Assembly (NCBI RefSeq): GCF_003074135.1
Contig: NZ_PPDK01000004.1
Coordinates: forward strand, 62,001 to 126,000
Length of the DNA: 64,000 bases
From: Euzebya tangerina
GTDB lineage: Bacteria > Actinomycetota > Nitriliruptoria > Euzebyales > Euzebyaceae
Direction of reading: 5' to 3'
Shown: positions 8,843-43,978 of the stretch, piece after piece
Layout: every line of letters begins with the position of its first letter
Position numbering within the stretch: position 1 is the stretch's first letter
Made by a program: the position numbers and the translations under genes
The notes under the pieces: generated by a model
The model's database searches: none
Seen by the model: the letters and a program-made list of their open reading frames with translations, nothing else
Told to the model about the DNA's origin: nothing

Positions 8843-9448
8843 ATGAGCTCGCCGTTCCCTCCCCCCACACCCGACCAGGCCGCCAGCATGCAGACCGTCG
8901 AGGAGCAGGCCGTGGCGGCCAGCATGGCCGCGACCACCGCGTCGGACTCGGCCACGCTGTGGGTGTTCGTGCTGGACGGTCCCCTCCGCGCCCAGGAGGC
9001 CCTGCTGGCGGCGATGCGACTGGTGGCGCGCAAGCACCTCAAGCTCGAGGACGCGGCCATCGTGACCAAGGTCGGCGGCAGGGTTCGGATCACCCAGACC
9101 AAGGACATCAACCCAGGGCAGGGGGCGATGTCGGGCACCTGGCTCGGTACGTTGGCCGGCCTGTTCGTGGGGCAGCCGTTGATCGGTGCTGCCATCGGGG
9201 CCGCAGTGGGTGGCCTCTTCGCGAAGCTGCGGGACATCGGCATCGACGACGACGAGATGAAGCAGATGGGTGAGGCGTTGGCCGACGACGAGGCGGCGCT
9301 GTTCCTGCTGATCGAGGACTGTCATGAGCTGCGGGCGCTCCGCGAGGTGGCCCGCTTCCCCGGTCGGCTACTGCGGACCACCGCGCCCGACGGCGTGGCG
9401 CAACGGGTCCGCGAGCAGCTGGTGGCACCCGACCCCTGGGGAACCTGA
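8843..9448 (+). CDS. DUF1269 family membrane-associated protein
   Basis: From ATG 8843, which has GGAG five bases upstream, the product has 201 residues. An upstream frame start at 8777 has no such site and would extend into the promoter region of the divergent metalloprotease. The centre (about 100-135) is a Gly-rich hydrophobic helical hairpin (GTWLGTLAGLFVGQPLIGAAIGAAVGGLF) as in DUF1269/DUF456-like proteins. It is followed by DIGIDDDEMKQMGEALADDEAALFLLI, the family's characteristic tail. A preceding ferredoxin-like region is plausible. Function is unknown; family members are often stress-linked. Confidence 0.78.
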   Translation: MSSPFPPPTPDQAASMQTVEEQAVAASMAATTASDSATLWVFVLDGPLRAQEALLAAMRLVARKHLKLEDAAIVTKVGGRVRITQTKDINPGQGAMSGTWLGTLAGLFVGQPLIGAAIGAAVGGLFAKLRDIGIDDDEMKQMGEALADDEAALFLLIEDCHELRALREVARFPGRLLRTTAPDGVAQRVREQLVAPDPWGT

Positions 9449-9476
9449 CCGTCCCCACTCGGTGATGCCGGCCCGG

Positions 9477-18159: not shown

Positions 18160-19176
18160 CTACCTCCCGCGCAGGTGCACCCGCATCCAGTCGAGCGTTG
18201 CCGCCAGGCCATCCGCCAGCGGCGTCGGGGACCACGATGGCACCAGGGCCTGCAGCCGGGAGATGTCCGCCTGGGAGCGCTGAACGTCCCCCGCCCGAGG
18301 CGGACCGAACTCGGTGGCCACGGTGGTCCCGGCAGCCTGGCCAAGCCGGTCGATGATCTCCAGCAGCGACGTGCGGGTTCCGGCCGCCACGTTGACCGGT
18401 ACCGGCGAGGTCAACCCGTGTGTGATGGCCCTCGTGATCAGCCAGGCGACGTCGTCGACGTACACGAAGTCGCGCGTTTGCGAGCCGTCGCCGAACACCG
18501 TGACGGGCGTCCCCTCCACCACCGCTGCGGCGAAGGCCGGGATGGCGGCGGCGTAGACGTGCCCCGGGGGCTGGTACGGCCCGTAGACGTTGAAGAAGCG
18601 GAGCGGTAGGACCGGCAGGTCGTAGGTCGCCGACCAGGCCATGGTGCTCGCCTCCGTCGCCAGCTTCGTCGCAGCGTAGGGGCTGCGGGGGTCAGGTGGG
18701 GTTGTCTCCGGTGTGGGGAGGGTCGGGTCGGCGCCGTACAGGGCGGCGGAGGAGGCCACGATGACCTGGGCGTTCCCGGCCTGCCGGGCCGCCTCCAGCA
18801 CCCGCACAGTGCCCGTCACGTTGACCGCGTGGCTGTCGACGGGGTTGGCCACCGACTCGGGCACCGAGGCACGAGCGGCCAGGTGGACGATGGCGTCGAC
18901 CCCGTCGGTCGCCTCCGCCAGCGCCGAGGGGTCGAGGATCGAACCCCGGCTGTCGGTCAGGTTCCCCACCGGGTCGGTCAGGTTCCCCACCGGGTCGGTC
19001 AGGTTCCCCACCGGGTGGGTGGGCTCCCCCGTCAGATCAGCAAGCGTCCCGTGGTCGCCCGCCGAGCGGTCGTCGAGAACGCGCACCTGGTCGATCCCCT
19101 CGGTCGCCAGCAGCCGCGCGACCAGGTTGGTGCCGATGAACCCGGCCCCGCCGGTCACCAGGACGGTCTTGCCCAC
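18160..19176 (-). CDS. NAD-dependent nucleotide-sugar epimerase/dehydratase with repeat insertion
   Basis: Length is 338 residues from GTG 19176, with a strong GGAGGAAGG site upstream. The extended-SDR motif TGGAGFIGTNL opens the protein. VHLAARASV and the Tyr-Lys pair in SPYAATKLA follow, then FFNVYGPYQPPGHVYAAAIPAF, typical of UDP-glucose 4-epimerase-like enzymes. Residues about 55-75 carry three near-identical NLTDPVG units encoded by the 21-bp repeat at 18953-19015, between the NAD-binding beta strands; this insert is not part of the family fold. The gene follows E3 by 45 bp on the same strand and may be the last gene of that operon or independent. Substrate is inferred as a UDP-hexose. 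Confidence 0.86.
   Translation of the reverse strand: MGKTVLVTGGAGFIGTNLVARLLATEGIDQVRVLDDRSAGDHGTLADLTGEPTHPVGNLTDPVGNLTDPVGNLTDSRGSILDPSALAEATDGVDAIVHLAARASVPESVANPVDSHAVNVTGTVRVLEAARQAGNAQVIVASSAALYGADPTLPTPETTPPDPRSPYAATKLATEASTMAWSATYDLPVLPLRFFNVYGPYQPPGHVYAAAIPAFAAAVVEGTPVTVFGDGSQTRDFVYVDDVAWLITRAITHGLTSPVPVNVAAGTRTSLLEIIDRLGQAAGTTVATEFGPPRAGDVQRSQADISRLQALVPSWSPTPLADGLAATLDWMRVHLRGR
18953..19015. repeat. In-frame 21-bp tandem repeat inside epimerase gene
   Basis: Three units of TCGGTCAGGTTCCCCACCGGG run without interruption, followed by a degraded fourth. The core GGTCAGGTTCCCCACC is identical to the intergenic 20-bp repeat family at 31431, 38721 and 42784. Here the period is 21, which keeps the reading frame. 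On the coding strand each unit reads VGNLTDP or a close form. Confidence 0.9.
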
Positions 19177-29795: not shown

Positions 29796-30683
29796 ATGAC
29801 CCATCCCCCACACGATCATCCGTCCTCCGCCACCGGCCTGCTGCTGATCGCCCACGGCACCCGAGACCCCGCCGGAGCAGAGGAGATGGAGGAACTGGTG
29901 GCCGCCGTGTCGCAGCGAGTACCGGTTCCCGTGGCCCACGCGTGGTTGGAGGACTTCTCCGACCCCCAGGGCGTCGAGGGGGCCCGCCCCCTGATCGAGG
30001 GGCACAGCGTCAGTCGGCTGGTCACGCTTCCGCTGCTCAACTTCGCGGCCGGGCATGCCAAGAACGACGTCCCCGAGCAGTTGGCGGAGATCAAGACGGC
30101 CTTCCCGGACATCGAGGTCACGCACGGCCGTGTCCTGGGGGTGCACCCGGATCTGCTCGAGCTGGCATGGCGGCGCCTGGACGCGGTCAGCCCGCGTGAC
30201 CAGCGGGCCGACGAGGTGCTGCTGGTCGCCGCCTCGGGATCGAGCGACCCGGACGCCAATGGCGAGCTGTACAAGGCCGCGCGGATGCTGGCGGAGGGAT
30301 CCGGCCACCGCTGGGTTGAGACCTGCGTGGCCGGGGTGACCTGGCCGAAGACCGACGAGGTGCTGGCCCGAGTGGCGGCCGCCGGAGCCAAGCGCGTGGT
30401 GGTGTTCAGCTGGTCGCTGCTCGCCGGGCTGCTCGAGCGGCGGATCTGGGAGGCGGTGGACGCCGCCGACCCTCTGGGGATGACGATCACCAAGGCCGGT
30501 CGGTTCGGCCCCTCGGACGGCGTGGCCGACGCGATCGTGCAGCGCTTCACCGAAGCACTGGGCGGCGACATCCGGGCCAACTGCGACGCTTGCGTGTACC
30601 GGATCGCATTCCCGGGCCGCGAGGAGCGGCAGGGCGCACCCTCGGCCGGTGGTGTGCGAGGATCCCGCCATGTCGATTCTTGA
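29796..30683 (+). CDS. Sirohydrochlorin chelatase, CbiX family
   Basis: Length is 295 residues from ATG 29796. The first half has the class II chelatase motif LLLIAHGTRDPAGAEEM and a second conserved His in LPLLNFAAGHAKNDVP. The second half is a degenerate copy (VLLVAASGSSDPDANGELY) without the first His. This two-half layout and the C-terminal NCDACVYRI tail are common in actinobacterial CbiX proteins that insert Co or Fe into sirohydrochlorin for cobalamin or siroheme. The C-terminus overlaps the start of the following SDR gene by 14 bp. No other tetrapyrrole gene is present in the window. Confidence 0.82.
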   Translation: MTHPPHDHPSSATGLLLIAHGTRDPAGAEEMEELVAAVSQRVPVPVAHAWLEDFSDPQGVEGARPLIEGHSVSRLVTLPLLNFAAGHAKNDVPEQLAEIKTAFPDIEVTHGRVLGVHPDLLELAWRRLDAVSPRDQRADEVLLVAASGSSDPDANGELYKAARMLAEGSGHRWVETCVAGVTWPKTDEVLARVAAAGAKRVVVFSWSLLAGLLERRIWEAVDAADPLGMTITKAGRFGPSDGVADAIVQRFTEALGGDIRANCDACVYRIAFPGREERQGAPSAGGVRGSRHVDS

Positions 30684-31431
30684 TCTCTTCCAGCTGAATG
30701 GTCGCGTCGCCCTGGTCACCGGGGCCTCATCGGGGCTGGGGGTGAGCGCTGCGGAGGGGTTGGCCGAGGCCAGCGCGGACCTGGTCCTGGTCGCCCGCCG
30801 GGCGGAGAAGCTGGAGGCGACCAAAGCCGCCGTCGAGGCGCTGGGTCGGGAGTGTGTGGTCGTCACCGGTGACGTGTCCGACCCGGAGACCGGCACTCGG
30901 GCGGTGGAGGCGGGGATGGAGGCCTTCGGACGGGTCGACATCCTGGTCAACAACGCCGGCATCGGTACTGCACACCCGGCCACCCGCGAGGCGCCGGAGG
31001 ACTTCGAGCAGGTCATCGACGTCAACCTCAACGGGTCCTACTTCATGGCTCAGGCCTGTGGGCGGGTGATGCAGCCCGGTTCCTCGATCATCAACATCAG
31101 CTCGATCCTGGGGTTTACCACGGCGGGCCTGCCGCAGTCGGCCTACGCCTCCTCCAAGGCTGCGGTCGTGGCGATGGCGCGGGATCTGGCCGTGCAGTGG
31201 ACGGGCCGGAAGGGCATCCGGGTCAACGCCATCGCACCCGGGTTCTTCGAGTCGGAGATGACGGCGCAGTACCCGGAGGGCTACATCGAGAAGATGATGC
31301 ACCGGGTCCCCGCCGGCCGGAAGGGCAAGCACGAGGAGTTCGTCGCGGCCGTGATCTTCCTGGCCAGTGACGCCGGGGGCTACTGCACCGGGATCTGCCT
31401 GCCGGTGGACGGCGGGATGCTGACGACCTAG
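30670..31431 (+). CDS. Short-chain dehydrogenase/reductase (FabG/glucose dehydrogenase-like)
   Basis: Length is 253 residues from ATG 30670, with GAGGA seven bases upstream. Motifs are TGASSGLG, NNAGIGTAH, NISSILGF (Ser), YASSKAA (Tyr-Lys) and the C-terminal YCTGICLPVDGGMLTT. VARRAEKLEA after beta-2 suggests NADPH. The overall fold and length match FabG-like 3-oxoacyl or sugar dehydrogenases; the substrate is unknown. The start lies inside the end of the CbiX gene. Its TAG stop (31429-31431) touches the first base of the 20-bp repeat array that fills the space to serA. Confidence 0.87.
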   Translation: MSILDLFQLNGRVALVTGASSGLGVSAAEGLAEASADLVLVARRAEKLEATKAAVEALGRECVVVTGDVSDPETGTRAVEAGMEAFGRVDILVNNAGIGTAHPATREAPEDFEQVIDVNLNGSYFMAQACGRVMQPGSSIINISSILGFTTAGLPQSAYASSKAAVVAMARDLAVQWTGRKGIRVNAIAPGFFESEMTAQYPEGYIEKMMHRVPAGRKGKHEEFVAAVIFLASDAGGYCTGICLPVDGGMLTT

Positions 31432-31515
31432 GTCAGGTTCCCCGCCACGAGGTCAGGTTCCCCACCACGAGGTCAGGTTCCCCACCCAAGGTCAGGTTCC
31501 CCACCACGAGGTCAG
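31431..31515. repeat. 20-bp tandem repeat array A filling a convergent gap
   Basis: Four units of GGTCAGGTTCCCC(A/G)CCACGA, at 31431-31450, 31451-31470, 31471-31489 (one base short) and 31490-31509, are followed by a partial unit GGTCAG. The array begins on the last base of the SDR stop codon. Its last partial unit supplies the serA stop codon (TGA on the minus strand, 31512-31514). No base between the two genes lies outside the array. Confidence 0.92.
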
Positions 31516-33080
31516 ACCAGGTTGACCGCCCGCACCGCTGTTGCGCCGATGGCATCGCAGATGTCGTCCAGCACGTCCGGCGGGATCGCCGAGTCGACGG
31601 TCATCGCCACCAGTGCCTCCCCGCCCGTGTTCGTCCGACCGACCTGCATCGAGGCGATGTTGACCTGGGCATCCCCCAGCTTGCTGCCGACGGTCCCGAC
31701 CACCCCGGGCTTGTCGGTGTAGCGGAAGAAGACCATGTGGGCCGCCGGCTCCATGTCCGTCTCGAACCCCCACACCTCGACCAGCCGCGGACGGTGGTTC
31801 GGCCCGACCAGCGTGCCGGACACGGCGTTGTCACCCGACCGCAGCCGCACCAGCGACACGTAGTCCTCGGACGCCTCGTTGGTCAACGTGGACAGGGAGA
31901 GATCGCGATCGGCGGCGATCAGCGGCGCGTTGACGAACGTCACCGGCTCGTGCACCACGTCGGTGAGCAGACCTCTGAGGGCCGACAGGTTGAGCGCGTC
32001 CAGTCCCTCCTCGGCGATCCGGCCGTGGTACTCCACGCAGACCCCGTCGGGGTGGCCGTCGGCCAGTGCCGTGAAGAGCCGACCCAACGTCTCGGTCAGC
32101 TCCATGTACGGCTTGACACCCTCCGGGATGCCCCCACCGATCTGGACGTTGACGGCCGAGGGGACGAACTCGCCGTCCAGTGCCAGGGCCACTGCCTCAG
32201 CAACCTGTACGCCCGCCTTGTCCTGCGCCTCGTCCGTGGACGCGCCGAGGTGCGGGGTCAGCACGGCGTTCGGCAGCTCGAGCAGCGGGGAGTCGCCCAG
32301 CGGCTCGTTGTCGAACACGTCCAGAGCCGCGCCACGGATGACGCCTTCGGCGAGCGCCGTGTGCAGGGCCACCTCGTCGACCAGTCCACCTCGGGCTGCG
32401 TTGACCAGCAGCGCACCGGGTCCGAGCGCCACGAGCTCCTCCTTCCCGATGATCCCGGCCGTCTCGGGTGTCTTCGGGAGGTGGATGGTGATGATGTCGG
32501 CCTGCTCGCACACATCGAGGACGGTCTCCGCGAGCGTGACCCCGAGTCGGGCCGCCCGCTCGGTGGTGACGAACGGGTCGTAGGCGACGAGGTGCACCCC
32601 GAAGGCCATCAGCCGCTGCGCCACCAGGGTGCCGATCCGCCCCAGGCCCAGGACGCCGACGGTCTTGCCGGCCAGCTCCACGCCCTTCAGCTTGGACCGC
32701 AGCCACGCCCCCTCTCGCATGGAGGCGTCGGCTTCGGGGATGCGCCGGGCCAGGCTGAGCAGCAGCGCGACGGCGTGCTCGGCAGCGGAGATGATGTTGG
32801 ACTGCGGGGCGTTGCAGACCAGGACCCCGCGTGCCGTCGCCGCGTCGATGTCGACGTTGTCCAGGCCGATGCCCGCCCGGGCGACCACCTTGAGCTTGGT
32901 GGCCGCCTCCAGCACATCGGCATCGATGGTCGTTGCCGAGCGGATCACGACGGCGTCGTAGCTGCCGATCACCTCGATCAGCTGCGGCTTGGGCAGACCA
33001 GTTCGAACATCGACCTCGAATCGCTCCGCAAGCTGGTCAACACCAGCATCGCTGAGCGCATCGGCGACAAGGACCTTCAT
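31512..33080 (-). CDS. serA: D-3-phosphoglycerate dehydrogenase
   Basis: Length is 522 residues, as in the long actinobacterial SerA. It oxidises 3-phosphoglycerate, the first step of serine synthesis. The substrate domain starts with MKVLVADALSDAGVDQL. The NAD motif is GVLGLGRIGTLVAQRL, catalytic residues are in NAARGGLVDE (Arg) and LTPHLGAST (His), and Glu lies between them. An intervening ASB-type domain precedes a C-terminal ACT domain that ends the protein (MQVGRTNTGGEALVAMTVD), where serine would bind for feedback inhibition. The gene is divergent from the GGDEF-EAL gene. Confidence 0.94.
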   Translation of the reverse strand: MKVLVADALSDAGVDQLAERFEVDVRTGLPKPQLIEVIGSYDAVVIRSATTIDADVLEAATKLKVVARAGIGLDNVDIDAATARGVLVCNAPQSNIISAAEHAVALLLSLARRIPEADASMREGAWLRSKLKGVELAGKTVGVLGLGRIGTLVAQRLMAFGVHLVAYDPFVTTERAARLGVTLAETVLDVCEQADIITIHLPKTPETAGIIGKEELVALGPGALLVNAARGGLVDEVALHTALAEGVIRGAALDVFDNEPLGDSPLLELPNAVLTPHLGASTDEAQDKAGVQVAEAVALALDGEFVPSAVNVQIGGGIPEGVKPYMELTETLGRLFTALADGHPDGVCVEYHGRIAEEGLDALNLSALRGLLTDVVHEPVTFVNAPLIAADRDLSLSTLTNEASEDYVSLVRLRSGDNAVSGTLVGPNHRPRLVEVWGFETDMEPAAHMVFFRYTDKPGVVGTVGSKLGDAQVNIASMQVGRTNTGGEALVAMTVDSAIPPDVLDDICDAIGATAVRAVNLV

Positions 33081-38720: not shown

Positions 38721-38840
38721 GCTCGTGGTGGGGAACCTCACCTCGTGGCGGGGAACCTCACCTCGTCGTGGGGAACCTCACCTCGTCGTGGGGAACCTCA
38801 CCTCGTGGCGGGGAACCTCACCTCGTCGTGGGGAACCTCA
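38721..38840. repeat. 20-bp tandem repeat array B in the ilvN-ilvC gap
   Basis: Six units, all exactly 20 bp, read on the minus strand as TGAGGTTCCCCACGACGAGG, with CGCCAC or CACCAC variants. It is the same family as arrays A and C with TGAGG in place of TCAGG. The orientation is opposite to arrays A and C on the plus strand. It starts 46 bp before the ilvC start and ends 20 bp after the ilvN stop. Confidence 0.92.
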
Positions 38841-38860
38841 CGTTGAGCGTGTTGTGACGG

Positions 38861-41894: not shown

Positions 41895-42785
41895 GTGCAG
41901 ACGATGACCACAATCCAGGTCGAGGGTGGGGAGTTGGCCGTCGCCCGTTGGGGGCCCACAGACGCGCCCACGGCAGTCGCCGCCCATGGCATCACCTCCC
42001 ACCATCTGGCTTGGTCGCTCGTCGGCCAGGACCTGGCGGAGCGGGGCCTGGGGCTGGTCGCCCCTGACTTGCGTGGCCGAGGCGACTCCAGCGATCCGGG
42101 CGCCGCCAGCTCACTGGCCGCTCACGCCGACGACCTGGTCGCGATGGCCCACTCGCTGGCCCTGCCCACGCCTGGTGTCGTTGCCGGTCACTCGATGGGA
42201 GGGTTCGTCGCCGCGATGGCCGGGGTCCGGCACCCCGGGTCCTGGTCGCACGTCGTGCTGGTGGACGGAGGACCACCTCTCTCCGACCCCCTGCCGGAGG
42301 GAACCGACGTCGAGGCGGTGCTGCTCAGCGTCATCGGCCCTGCGCTCGAACGGTTGGATGCCAGGTTCGAGTCCCCCGAGGCCTACCGGGTGTTCTGGCG
42401 GAACCACCCGGCGCTGGCTGGGGTCGACCCCCATCTGGTCAATCGCTACGCCGATTACGATCTGCGCCCGGACGGTGACACCTGGCGGTCCAAGGTCTCG
42501 CGGGCGGCGATCCTGGCCGACGCGCGAGACACGCTCGTGGATCCTGAGGTCAGGACTGCAGTGGAGTCCCTGGCGCCGCTACCCGCGACGATGCTGCACG
42601 CCGAGCGAGGGATGCAGGACGGTCCCGTGGCGCTCTACCCGCCGGAGCGGATCGCCGCGATCGTGGATCCCCTCCCCCACGTGGAGACGCACCTGGTGGA
42701 GGACGTCAACCACTACACGATCAGCCTGGCCCCGCACGGGGCTCGTGCGGTGGCGGACGCGATCGCGTCAGCCCTCACGACGTAG
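41895..42785 (+). CDS. Alpha/beta-fold hydrolase
   Basis: Length is 296 residues from GTG 41895 (293 from ATG 41904). The oxyanion region is AVAAHGITSHHLAW, the nucleophile elbow is VAGHSMGGFVAAMAG, and the catalytic His is in EDVNHYTISL. LVAPDLRGRGDSSDP is typical of the family. Asp of the triad is not certain. Substrate is unknown. A longer open frame upstream crosses the repeat cluster and is not a gene. Its TAG stop begins repeat array C. Confidence 0.82.
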   Translation: MQTMTTIQVEGGELAVARWGPTDAPTAVAAHGITSHHLAWSLVGQDLAERGLGLVAPDLRGRGDSSDPGAASSLAAHADDLVAMAHSLALPTPGVVAGHSMGGFVAAMAGVRHPGSWSHVVLVDGGPPLSDPLPEGTDVEAVLLSVIGPALERLDARFESPEAYRVFWRNHPALAGVDPHLVNRYADYDLRPDGDTWRSKVSRAAILADARDTLVDPEVRTAVESLAPLPATMLHAERGMQDGPVALYPPERIAAIVDPLPHVETHLVEDVNHYTISLAPHGARAVADAIASALTT

Positions 42786-42930
42786 CCAGGTTCCCCACCA
42801 CGAGGTCAGGTTCCCCACCACACGGTCAGGTTCCCCACCACACGGTCAGGTTCCCCACGACGAGGTCAGGTTCCCCACCACGAGGTCAGGTTCCCCACGA
42901 CGAGGTCAGGTTCCCCACCACGAGGTCAGG
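42784..42930. repeat. 20-bp tandem repeat array C filling a convergent gap
   Basis: Seven complete 20-bp units (42784-42923) and a partial one (42924-42930) follow the form GGTCAGGTTCCCCACCACGA, with ACCACAC and ACGACGA variants at the end of the unit. The first unit starts inside the stop codon of the hydrolase gene. The last partial unit holds the stop codon of idi2 (TGA on the minus strand, 42926-42928). The repeats therefore make up the whole gap between the two genes. Confidence 0.93.
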
Positions 42931-43978
42931 CGGGGCGGAGGTCCCCCGGACCCAGGCCGGTCACCGACCGATGGCCGGTCGCCCAGACGGCGATCCGCAA
43001 CTGCTCGACCAGCACGCCCAACTCCTCCGACGCGGCCGCCGGCCCCTCCGCCCCGGCAGCCAGCAGCCGACGTCCGAAGCCCGCCAGATCTGCGCCCAGG
43101 GCCACGCACTTCGCGGCGTCCACCCCGTCCTCCAAACCGCCGGACGCCATCAGCACGACCGCCGACCCCCGCTCCGCCCGTACGGTCGCGGCCGACCGCA
43201 ACGAGTCGACCGTCGACCACCCCCAGTCCGCGAACGCTCCGGCCACCCGCCCCGCCCGGCTGTCGCGTTGCCCCTCCACCGTCGCCCAGTTCGTCCCCCC
43301 CGCGCCCGCCACATCGATTCCGGCCACCCCTGCGTCGACCAGGGCGGCGATGTCCTCGCGAGCCATCCCGAAGCCGACCTCCTTGACCACGACGGGAACC
43401 TCGAGCCGGCCGGCCACCGTCTCGATGGCCTCCAGGACCCCCTCGAAGTCCGTGTCCCCGCCCGGCTGGACCGCCTCCTGAACCGCGTTGAGGTGCAGCA
43501 CCAGCACATCTGCGCCTGTGGCCTCCAGCAGCCGTCGACACCCCTCGACCCCGTGCTCCGCCAGCTGGACCGCCCCGAGGTTGGCCAGCAGCAGCACATC
43601 GGGTGCGATGTCGCGGACCTGGAACGAGGCGGGGTCTCCTCCCTCGAGCAGCGATCGGCCCGACCCCAGGCCAAGCACCACCCGGTGCTCCTGCGCCGCC
43701 GCCGCCAGTGCCCGATTGACCGGCCCCGCCGCACCGGTGCCTCCCGTCATGCAGCTGATCGCGACGGGAGCGGCCACCCGCCGCCCGAAGAGCTCGACGC
43801 CGAGGTCGACGTCCGCCAGTGAGCAGCCCGGTAGCGCCCTGGCGTTCAACCGCAGTGCCTCAAGACCGGTGGTGATGCCCACGTGGCCCACGTCCTCCTG
43901 CAAGCTCAGCCGCAGGTGGTCGGCCTTGCGCGCCGCGACGCCGTCCTCCCGGCCGCCCGCTTGCGAGCCCGCGCTCAA
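42926..43978 (-). CDS. fni: Isopentenyl-diphosphate delta-isomerase, type 2
   Basis: Length is 350 residues from TTG 43978. It interconverts IPP and DMAPP with FMN and NADPH. Family features are RKADHLRLSLQEDV at the start, PVAISCMTGGTGAAGPVNRALAAAAQEHRVVLGLGSGRSLL, LHLNAVQEAVQPGGDTDF, VVKEVGFGMA and AGIDVAGAGGTNW. The C-terminus has ALGADLAGFGR. No ATG or GTG lies close to the family's start; TTGA overlaps the TGA of crtB, so translation is probably coupled. An open frame extends upstream but only into crtB. It closes the carotenoid operon and supplies C5 units. Confidence 0.86.
   Translation of the reverse strand: MSAGSQAGGREDGVAARKADHLRLSLQEDVGHVGITTGLEALRLNARALPGCSLADVDLGVELFGRRVAAPVAISCMTGGTGAAGPVNRALAAAAQEHRVVLGLGSGRSLLEGGDPASFQVRDIAPDVLLLANLGAVQLAEHGVEGCRRLLEATGADVLVLHLNAVQEAVQPGGDTDFEGVLEAIETVAGRLEVPVVVKEVGFGMAREDIAALVDAGVAGIDVAGAGGTNWATVEGQRDSRAGRVAGAFADWGWSTVDSLRSAATVRAERGSAVVLMASGGLEDGVDAAKCVALGADLAGFGRRLLAAGAEGPAAASEELGVLVEQLRIAVWATGHRSVTGLGPGDLRPA

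Follow-up and report, generated by a model that had tools for sequence, protein, structure and literature searches.

A probable lineage-specific dispersed minisatellite at gene ends and within genes of Euzebya tangerina

The GGGAATC and GGGGA(C/T)T repeats of Xanthomonas and Nostoc consist of 7-bp units that form G-quadruplexes, and are found mainly between aligned genes (PMC4692102). The STAR elements of Staphylococcus have a 14-bp core, T(G/A/T)TGTTG(G/T)GGCCC(C/A), with spacers of at least 40 bp, and the mechanism of their dispersal is stated to be unknown (PMC3532100). The array family described here most closely resembles the Xanthomonas/Nostoc repeats and works like the STAR elements, but by sequence it belongs to neither.

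The stretch of DNA analysed (the window) comprises 64,000 nucleotides, C4:62001-126000, of a genome of 4.78 Mb in 12 contigs. An SDR-family oxidoreductase gene (30670..31431, plus strand; PF13561, 2.7e-57) converges here with serA, the phosphoglycerate dehydrogenase gene (31512..33080, minus strand; Pfam 2-Hacid_dh, PGDH_inter and ACT). The whole gap between their stop codons is spanned by an array (31431..31514, plus strand) of four GGTCAGGTTCCCCNCCACGA units and a partial GGTCA. The first base of the array is the last base of the adjoining SDR stop (TAG, 31429-31431; G at 31431), and the serA stop (TCA, the minus-strand TGA, 31512-31514) lies within the partial fifth unit. The initial annotation gave both the sequence and the coordinates of this stop-to-stop array correctly. 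TRF reports it at 31430-31515, with a period of 20, 4.3 copies and 92% matches. The AGGTTCCCC cores start at 31435, 31455, 31475 and 31494, giving spacings of 20, 20 and 19. The units are not all identical: in order they are GGTCAGGTTCCCCGCCACGA, ...ACCACGA, ...ACCCAA and ...ACCACGA, with GCC in place of ACC in unit 1 and a length of 19 bp in unit 3, which ends in ACCCAA. Allowing at most one mismatch, GTCAGGTTCCCC has 23 matches in the window against 0.66 expected, which is not chance; lone cores elsewhere, such as the isolated GTCAGGTTCCCC at 9438..9449 (minus strand), are at about chance level.

The window has three sister arrays that had been overlooked. One (18956-19012, plus strand) has three units of 21 bp, in frame within a sugar-nucleotide epimerase gene (18160-19176, minus strand), where it encodes (VGNLTDP)3. 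Another (38722-38841, minus strand; six units, GAGGTGAGGTTCCCC...) separates ilvN from ilvC within the ilv operon. The third (42785-42926, plus strand; seven units) again fills a stop-to-stop gap, between convergent genes for a hydrolase (41895-42785, plus strand) and an FMN-dependent dehydrogenase (42926-43978, minus strand). The whole-genome search for the unit that the initial annotation had proposed confirms and extends the picture: the array between SDR and serA is one member of a family of about 49 arrays that share the core AGGTTCCCC. The genome has 133 adjacent-core pairs, and a reversed-pattern control gave none. Mapping within 1.64 Mb, which contains essentially all of the 133 matches, located 49 arrays of 2–12 units each, with unit spacings of 20 bp (n=120), 21 bp (n=13), 19 bp (n=2) and 18 bp (n=3). 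Single GGTTCCCC copies number 63, about the chance level. The unit consists of a 9-bp core and an 11-bp linker, the linkers being near-identical within an array; the consensus over the array consensuses is GGTCAGGTTCCCCACCGCGA, with a G-strand core of GGGGAACCT.

The arrays are clustered, with five gaps of less than 2 kb against 1.0 expected (p=0.003). There is no homology among their flanks beyond overlapping stretches and nearby repeat sequence, and no large duplication carries flanks along with an array, so it is the unit itself that was copied. Most arrays are purely direct repeats; about four loci have units in inverted, head-to-head orientation. At C3:116201-116292 and C1:3329530-3329700 the head-to-head units form perfect hairpins, for example GGGGAACCTGGCCT-CACA-AGGCCAGGTTCCCC, and such loci could terminate transcription, though most arrays cannot. 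Contigs C2 and C4 of this genome (G000) both start inside the same 20-bp ACGGGTCGGTCAGGTTCCCC array, on opposite strands (C2:5-94 and C4:3-91), which suggests that they are neighbours bridged by a longer array.

The placement of the arrays is not random. Genes were called with a home-made caller trained on this genome, so that single boundaries may be off. Of the 49 arrays, 12 lie within genes and 2 at contig ends; the others are flanked by a convergent gene pair in 15 cases, by a co-directional pair in 18 and by a divergent pair in 2. In contigs C2–C4, which are nearly fully sampled and to which the junction counts were restricted, 9/152 convergent junctions have an array, against 3/655 co-directional and 1/151 divergent ones (p=3e-5; counted by gene 3' end, p=0.0025). 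With the units subtracted, the convergent gaps measure −17 to 100 bp (median 17, against a background median of 39). Short gaps make up only 6% of convergent intergenic DNA, and most convergent arrays are nevertheless in gaps that are short without their units, so the arrays track gene ends and not the amount of spacer. At many gene ends the first core is 2–15 bp from the stop. Of 30 orientable cases, 22 have the C-rich strand antisense to the gene, which makes the G-rich strand coding by 22:8 (p=0.016). Array orientation has no relation to replication as judged by local GC skew (16/12 against 11/10). Units at random positions in coding and non-coding DNA were named in the initial annotation as evidence against its reading; that is not the distribution found, convergent ends being enriched genome-wide, although about a quarter of the arrays do lie inside genes.

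With the Xanthomonas/Nostoc repeats the family has in common dispersed arrays of short direct repeats that are mostly intergenic and have an invariant G-run, a position 0–50 bp past stops with the G-rich strand coding and possible overlap with the stop, the occurrence of inverted pairs, and a presence in few genomes (PMC4692102). It differs in its 20-bp units, its convergent enrichment, its many arrays of two or three units and its restriction to one species; the arrays contain no tandem heptamer GGGAATC or GGGGA(C/T)T, and their GGGG runs are 16 nt apart. Like the STAR elements, the family has a GC-rich conserved core, locus-specific spacers, a copy number that grows and shrinks, dispersed and mostly intergenic loci, and loci that differ from species to species (PMC3532100). 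The layout here is a 9-bp core with an 11-bp linker, the sequence is a different one, and the STAR signature is absent from the array consensus. The MIRU/VNTR loci of Mycobacterium tuberculosis are also interspersed tandem repeats in small gaps between a stop and the next gene, and are lacking in relatives, but they have units of 40–100 bp of unrelated sequence and lie mainly between co-directional operon genes (PMC2734929; see also Supply 1997). Rickettsia palindromic elements share the property of being non-coding repeats found in frame in unrelated metabolic genes and tolerated as extra peptide, but are MITE-like palindromes of about 150 bp, whereas the repeats here are short, direct and mostly between genes (PMC10969869). 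CRISPR repeats with diverse spacers of about 30 bp were not found, the period being 20 and the 11-bp linkers near-identical; nor were the inverted-repeat ends, movement as a unit and target duplication of MITE or REP elements, since the arrays are mostly direct repeats with unrelated flanks. One tandem unit recurs at many loci that are otherwise unrelated, is homogenised within each of them and is lacking in close relatives; these features are those of a dispersed minisatellite.

Judged from the genomes searched, the family is lineage-specific: some 450 further genomes of the phylum and the three congeners have no arrays, save one isolated two-unit match. The adjacent-unit pattern has no match in 60 relatives, including the three congeners. 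In a phylum sample of 396 genomes (this genome and the congeners included), a narrower pattern requiring GAGGTTCCCC matched, besides this genome, only 1/395, with a single two-unit match. Nine single arrays were found in other phyla, with linkers unlike those of the family; this is about the number that we estimate for unrelated minisatellites, and they were rejected as members. Matches in IMG/VR come mostly from a single viral group that is unrelated and has AGGTTCCCC/GGGGAACCT at constant positions; they were likewise rejected. The viral contigs L150-L157, L159 and L161-L165 have in common a conserved stretch with several AGGTTCCCC copies and an inverted GGGGAACCT at fixed positions, which might be an origin or a structured region. 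A literature search on AGGTTCCCC and "tandem repeat" returned only unrelated papers and no description of the sequence.

Comparison with the congeners indicates that the arrays are insertions, because these have array-free sites both at ilvN–ilvC and inside the epimerase gene. At ilvN–ilvC, the flanking genes align up to array-free gaps of 48 bp (G002), 85 bp (G003) and 116 bp (G001). The epimerase orthologues of G002 and G003 have a short loop instead of (VGNLTDP)3, and the closest solved structures align to the epimerase with a gap at this position. serA of the congeners shares about 82% identity with that of this genome; the SDR–serA junction was sought there and is not conserved, so that this array has no direct array-free counterpart. 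Copies in frame are also found in hutI, argJ, valS and acyl-CoA ligases, and the genes that carry them stay open and still match their own families. Further in-frame copies are present in a partial queA-like gene, which, from its low score, may be degenerate.

The core is much less variable than the linker. Within arrays, 22/234 columns are polymorphic in AGGTTCCCC against 86/286 elsewhere (p=5e-9, a value that is indicative because units inside one array are not independent), and for TTCCCC the figure is 4/156, while linkers drift. When TRF arrays were chosen by linker alone, with C1 regions that had been selected for containing arrays, the core was present in 27/30, the remaining three being chance look-alikes. 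The near-invariance of TTCCCC implies that something recognises it, be it a factor that binds there or a copying machinery that depends on the sequence.

The genus has other repeats. Congener G001 carries a dispersed element of its own, with 41 copies of GGAGTCGATCCGTG as inverted arms over about 230 bp: minus copies, a centre with a CACGGATGTGCAC-like motif, then plus copies. Its sites include C45:116065 (L168, L195, L256), C51:23946 (L262), C55, C57, C99, C101 and others, one of them at the serA 3' end, and its copies are spaced at 21, 32–33, 44, 53–54, 64 and 75 bp, approximately multiples of 10.7. The element is absent from G000 (searched as a paired-unit pattern), G002 and G003. Minisatellites of 16–23 bp starting at or near stops are present in G001 (L213:13040-13170 and L197:11700-11830), in G002 (L229:5780-5990 and L224:2900-3120) and in the present genome (C3:17650-17900). 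Those at L213 and L197 look like duplications of the last codons and stop of their own gene.

We consider it likely (probability roughly 0.7) that the family is a lineage-specific dispersed minisatellite, whose copies reached new sites, multiplied there and survived where they did no harm. A unit of about 20 bp with the core AGGTTCCCC has been copied without flanking DNA to some 49 sites of one genome, as shown by the same unit at unrelated sites, the non-homologous flanks and the array-free congener sites. At each site, higher-order repeats and locus-specific linkers point to amplification and trimming through replication slippage or unequal exchange. Copies persist chiefly behind stops, foremost where two genes converge, and within genes as loop peptides in frame; this placement is observed, and the reason is presumably that they do least harm there. 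Removal of the units between SDR and serA leaves TAG-G-TCA, so the junction before the array was probably only a few bases long, and an array inserted into it would run from stop to stop. Copying may have occurred by templated insertion at short homologies, as GGTCAGG/CCTGACC resembles TGACC, which is the commonest stop context (201 of about 1390 stops, 14.5%). A core-less unit matches CCGGTGACCGAC in the epimerase orthologue, a possible hint of insertion at short homologies; the match was not taken as proof that linkers derive from local host DNA, as the same linker is found in other arrays. Several points count against the minisatellite reading: no transposase, target duplication or copying intermediate was identified for the family, the array between SDR and serA has no array-free counterpart in the congeners, the invariance of the core exceeds what is predicted for a purely neutral minisatellite, and the convergent-end enrichment could also reflect function.

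Such a function might be protein binding, with a DNA-binding protein recognising GGTCAGGTTCCCC and the bound arrays serving as roadblocks in both directions or as insulators where genes converge, or anchoring the nucleoid. The constrained core, the spacings of mostly 20–21 bp and the convergent enrichment speak for this, but we regard it as doubtful: a roadblock would be harmful at the arrays within genes, about a quarter of the total, and in the ilv operon, all congeners lack the arrays, and no candidate protein was identified. The initial annotation took the 20-bp period to place each unit on the same helical face, which is a weak argument, since tandem duplication sets the spacing in any case and 18, 19, 20 and 21 bp all occur. 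The units may bind a protein, the near-invariant TTCCCC being the only hint of it. A role in termination is less probable still. The initial annotation rightly saw no hairpin within a unit: folds and scans of the arrays found no GC hairpin with a T-run, an intrinsic terminator was rejected, and the arrays fold no better than shuffled sequences. Nor do they replace terminators at convergent ends, where foldedness is the same as at other gene ends. The lack of a hairpin, together with one array inside the ilv operon, argues against an obligatory terminator. An RNA-level terminator, acting after stops either through Rho loading on the C-rich strand, with its UUCCCC at 20-nt intervals, or through G-quadruplexes in the G-rich strand, would fit the tight placement behind stops, the usually coding G-rich strand and the Xanthomonas G-rich arrays near stops, where more transcripts start or end (PMC4692102). 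It is nonetheless improbable, because 18/49 arrays have fewer than four units, insufficient for a G-quadruplex from GGGG runs alone, because the ilvN–ilvC array has its C-rich strand in sense, and because arrays also occur within genes. The arrays reveal no new way of ending transcription.

The initial annotation offered two origins for the array between SDR and serA: growth from the gene ends, or one unit supplying both stops. In keeping with the latter, several genes of the genome take their stop from the repeat, four of them from inside an array. The former is not supported, given the same unit at about 49 unrelated sites and two sister arrays that are insertions relative to congeners. Its general form, that each array arose on its own when the 3' end of its gene was duplicated in tandem, with the stop inherited by the first unit, has apparent parallels in G001, namely CTGTTCGACTGA (17 bp), GAGGTCCAGGCCCTCTGA (16 bp) and a 16-bp CCTGGTCTGACCGGGC duplication at serA; with the GGTTCCCC unit the same everywhere and pre-stop codons generally unlike it, we consider this very unlikely. 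That long arrays break assembly is seen at the starts of C2 and C4, but an assembly artefact is scarcely credible when units within an array differ from one another, 45 or more arrays are inside long contigs with distinct flanks, and the genes with in-frame copies are open and match their families.

Returning to the dispersed minisatellite, a more ambitious version is offered only tentatively. A self-spreading 20-bp unit, whose invariant TTCCCC a host factor would recognise, might enter GGTCAGG-like sites through templated insertion where short homologies exist, and at many genes the site would be the stop codon (TGACC); the independently born, stop-anchored minisatellites of the congeners and one other dispersed family would then make gene ends in the genus a place where repeats arise time and again.

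For the question of how short direct repeats that are not palindromic disperse through bacterial genomes with no transposon, the genome described here is a clean case: its arrays, about 49 in number, are young, the three congeners have none, and array-free orthologous sites reveal the insert. A tRNA synthetase and biosynthetic enzymes have also gained peptide from such repeats.
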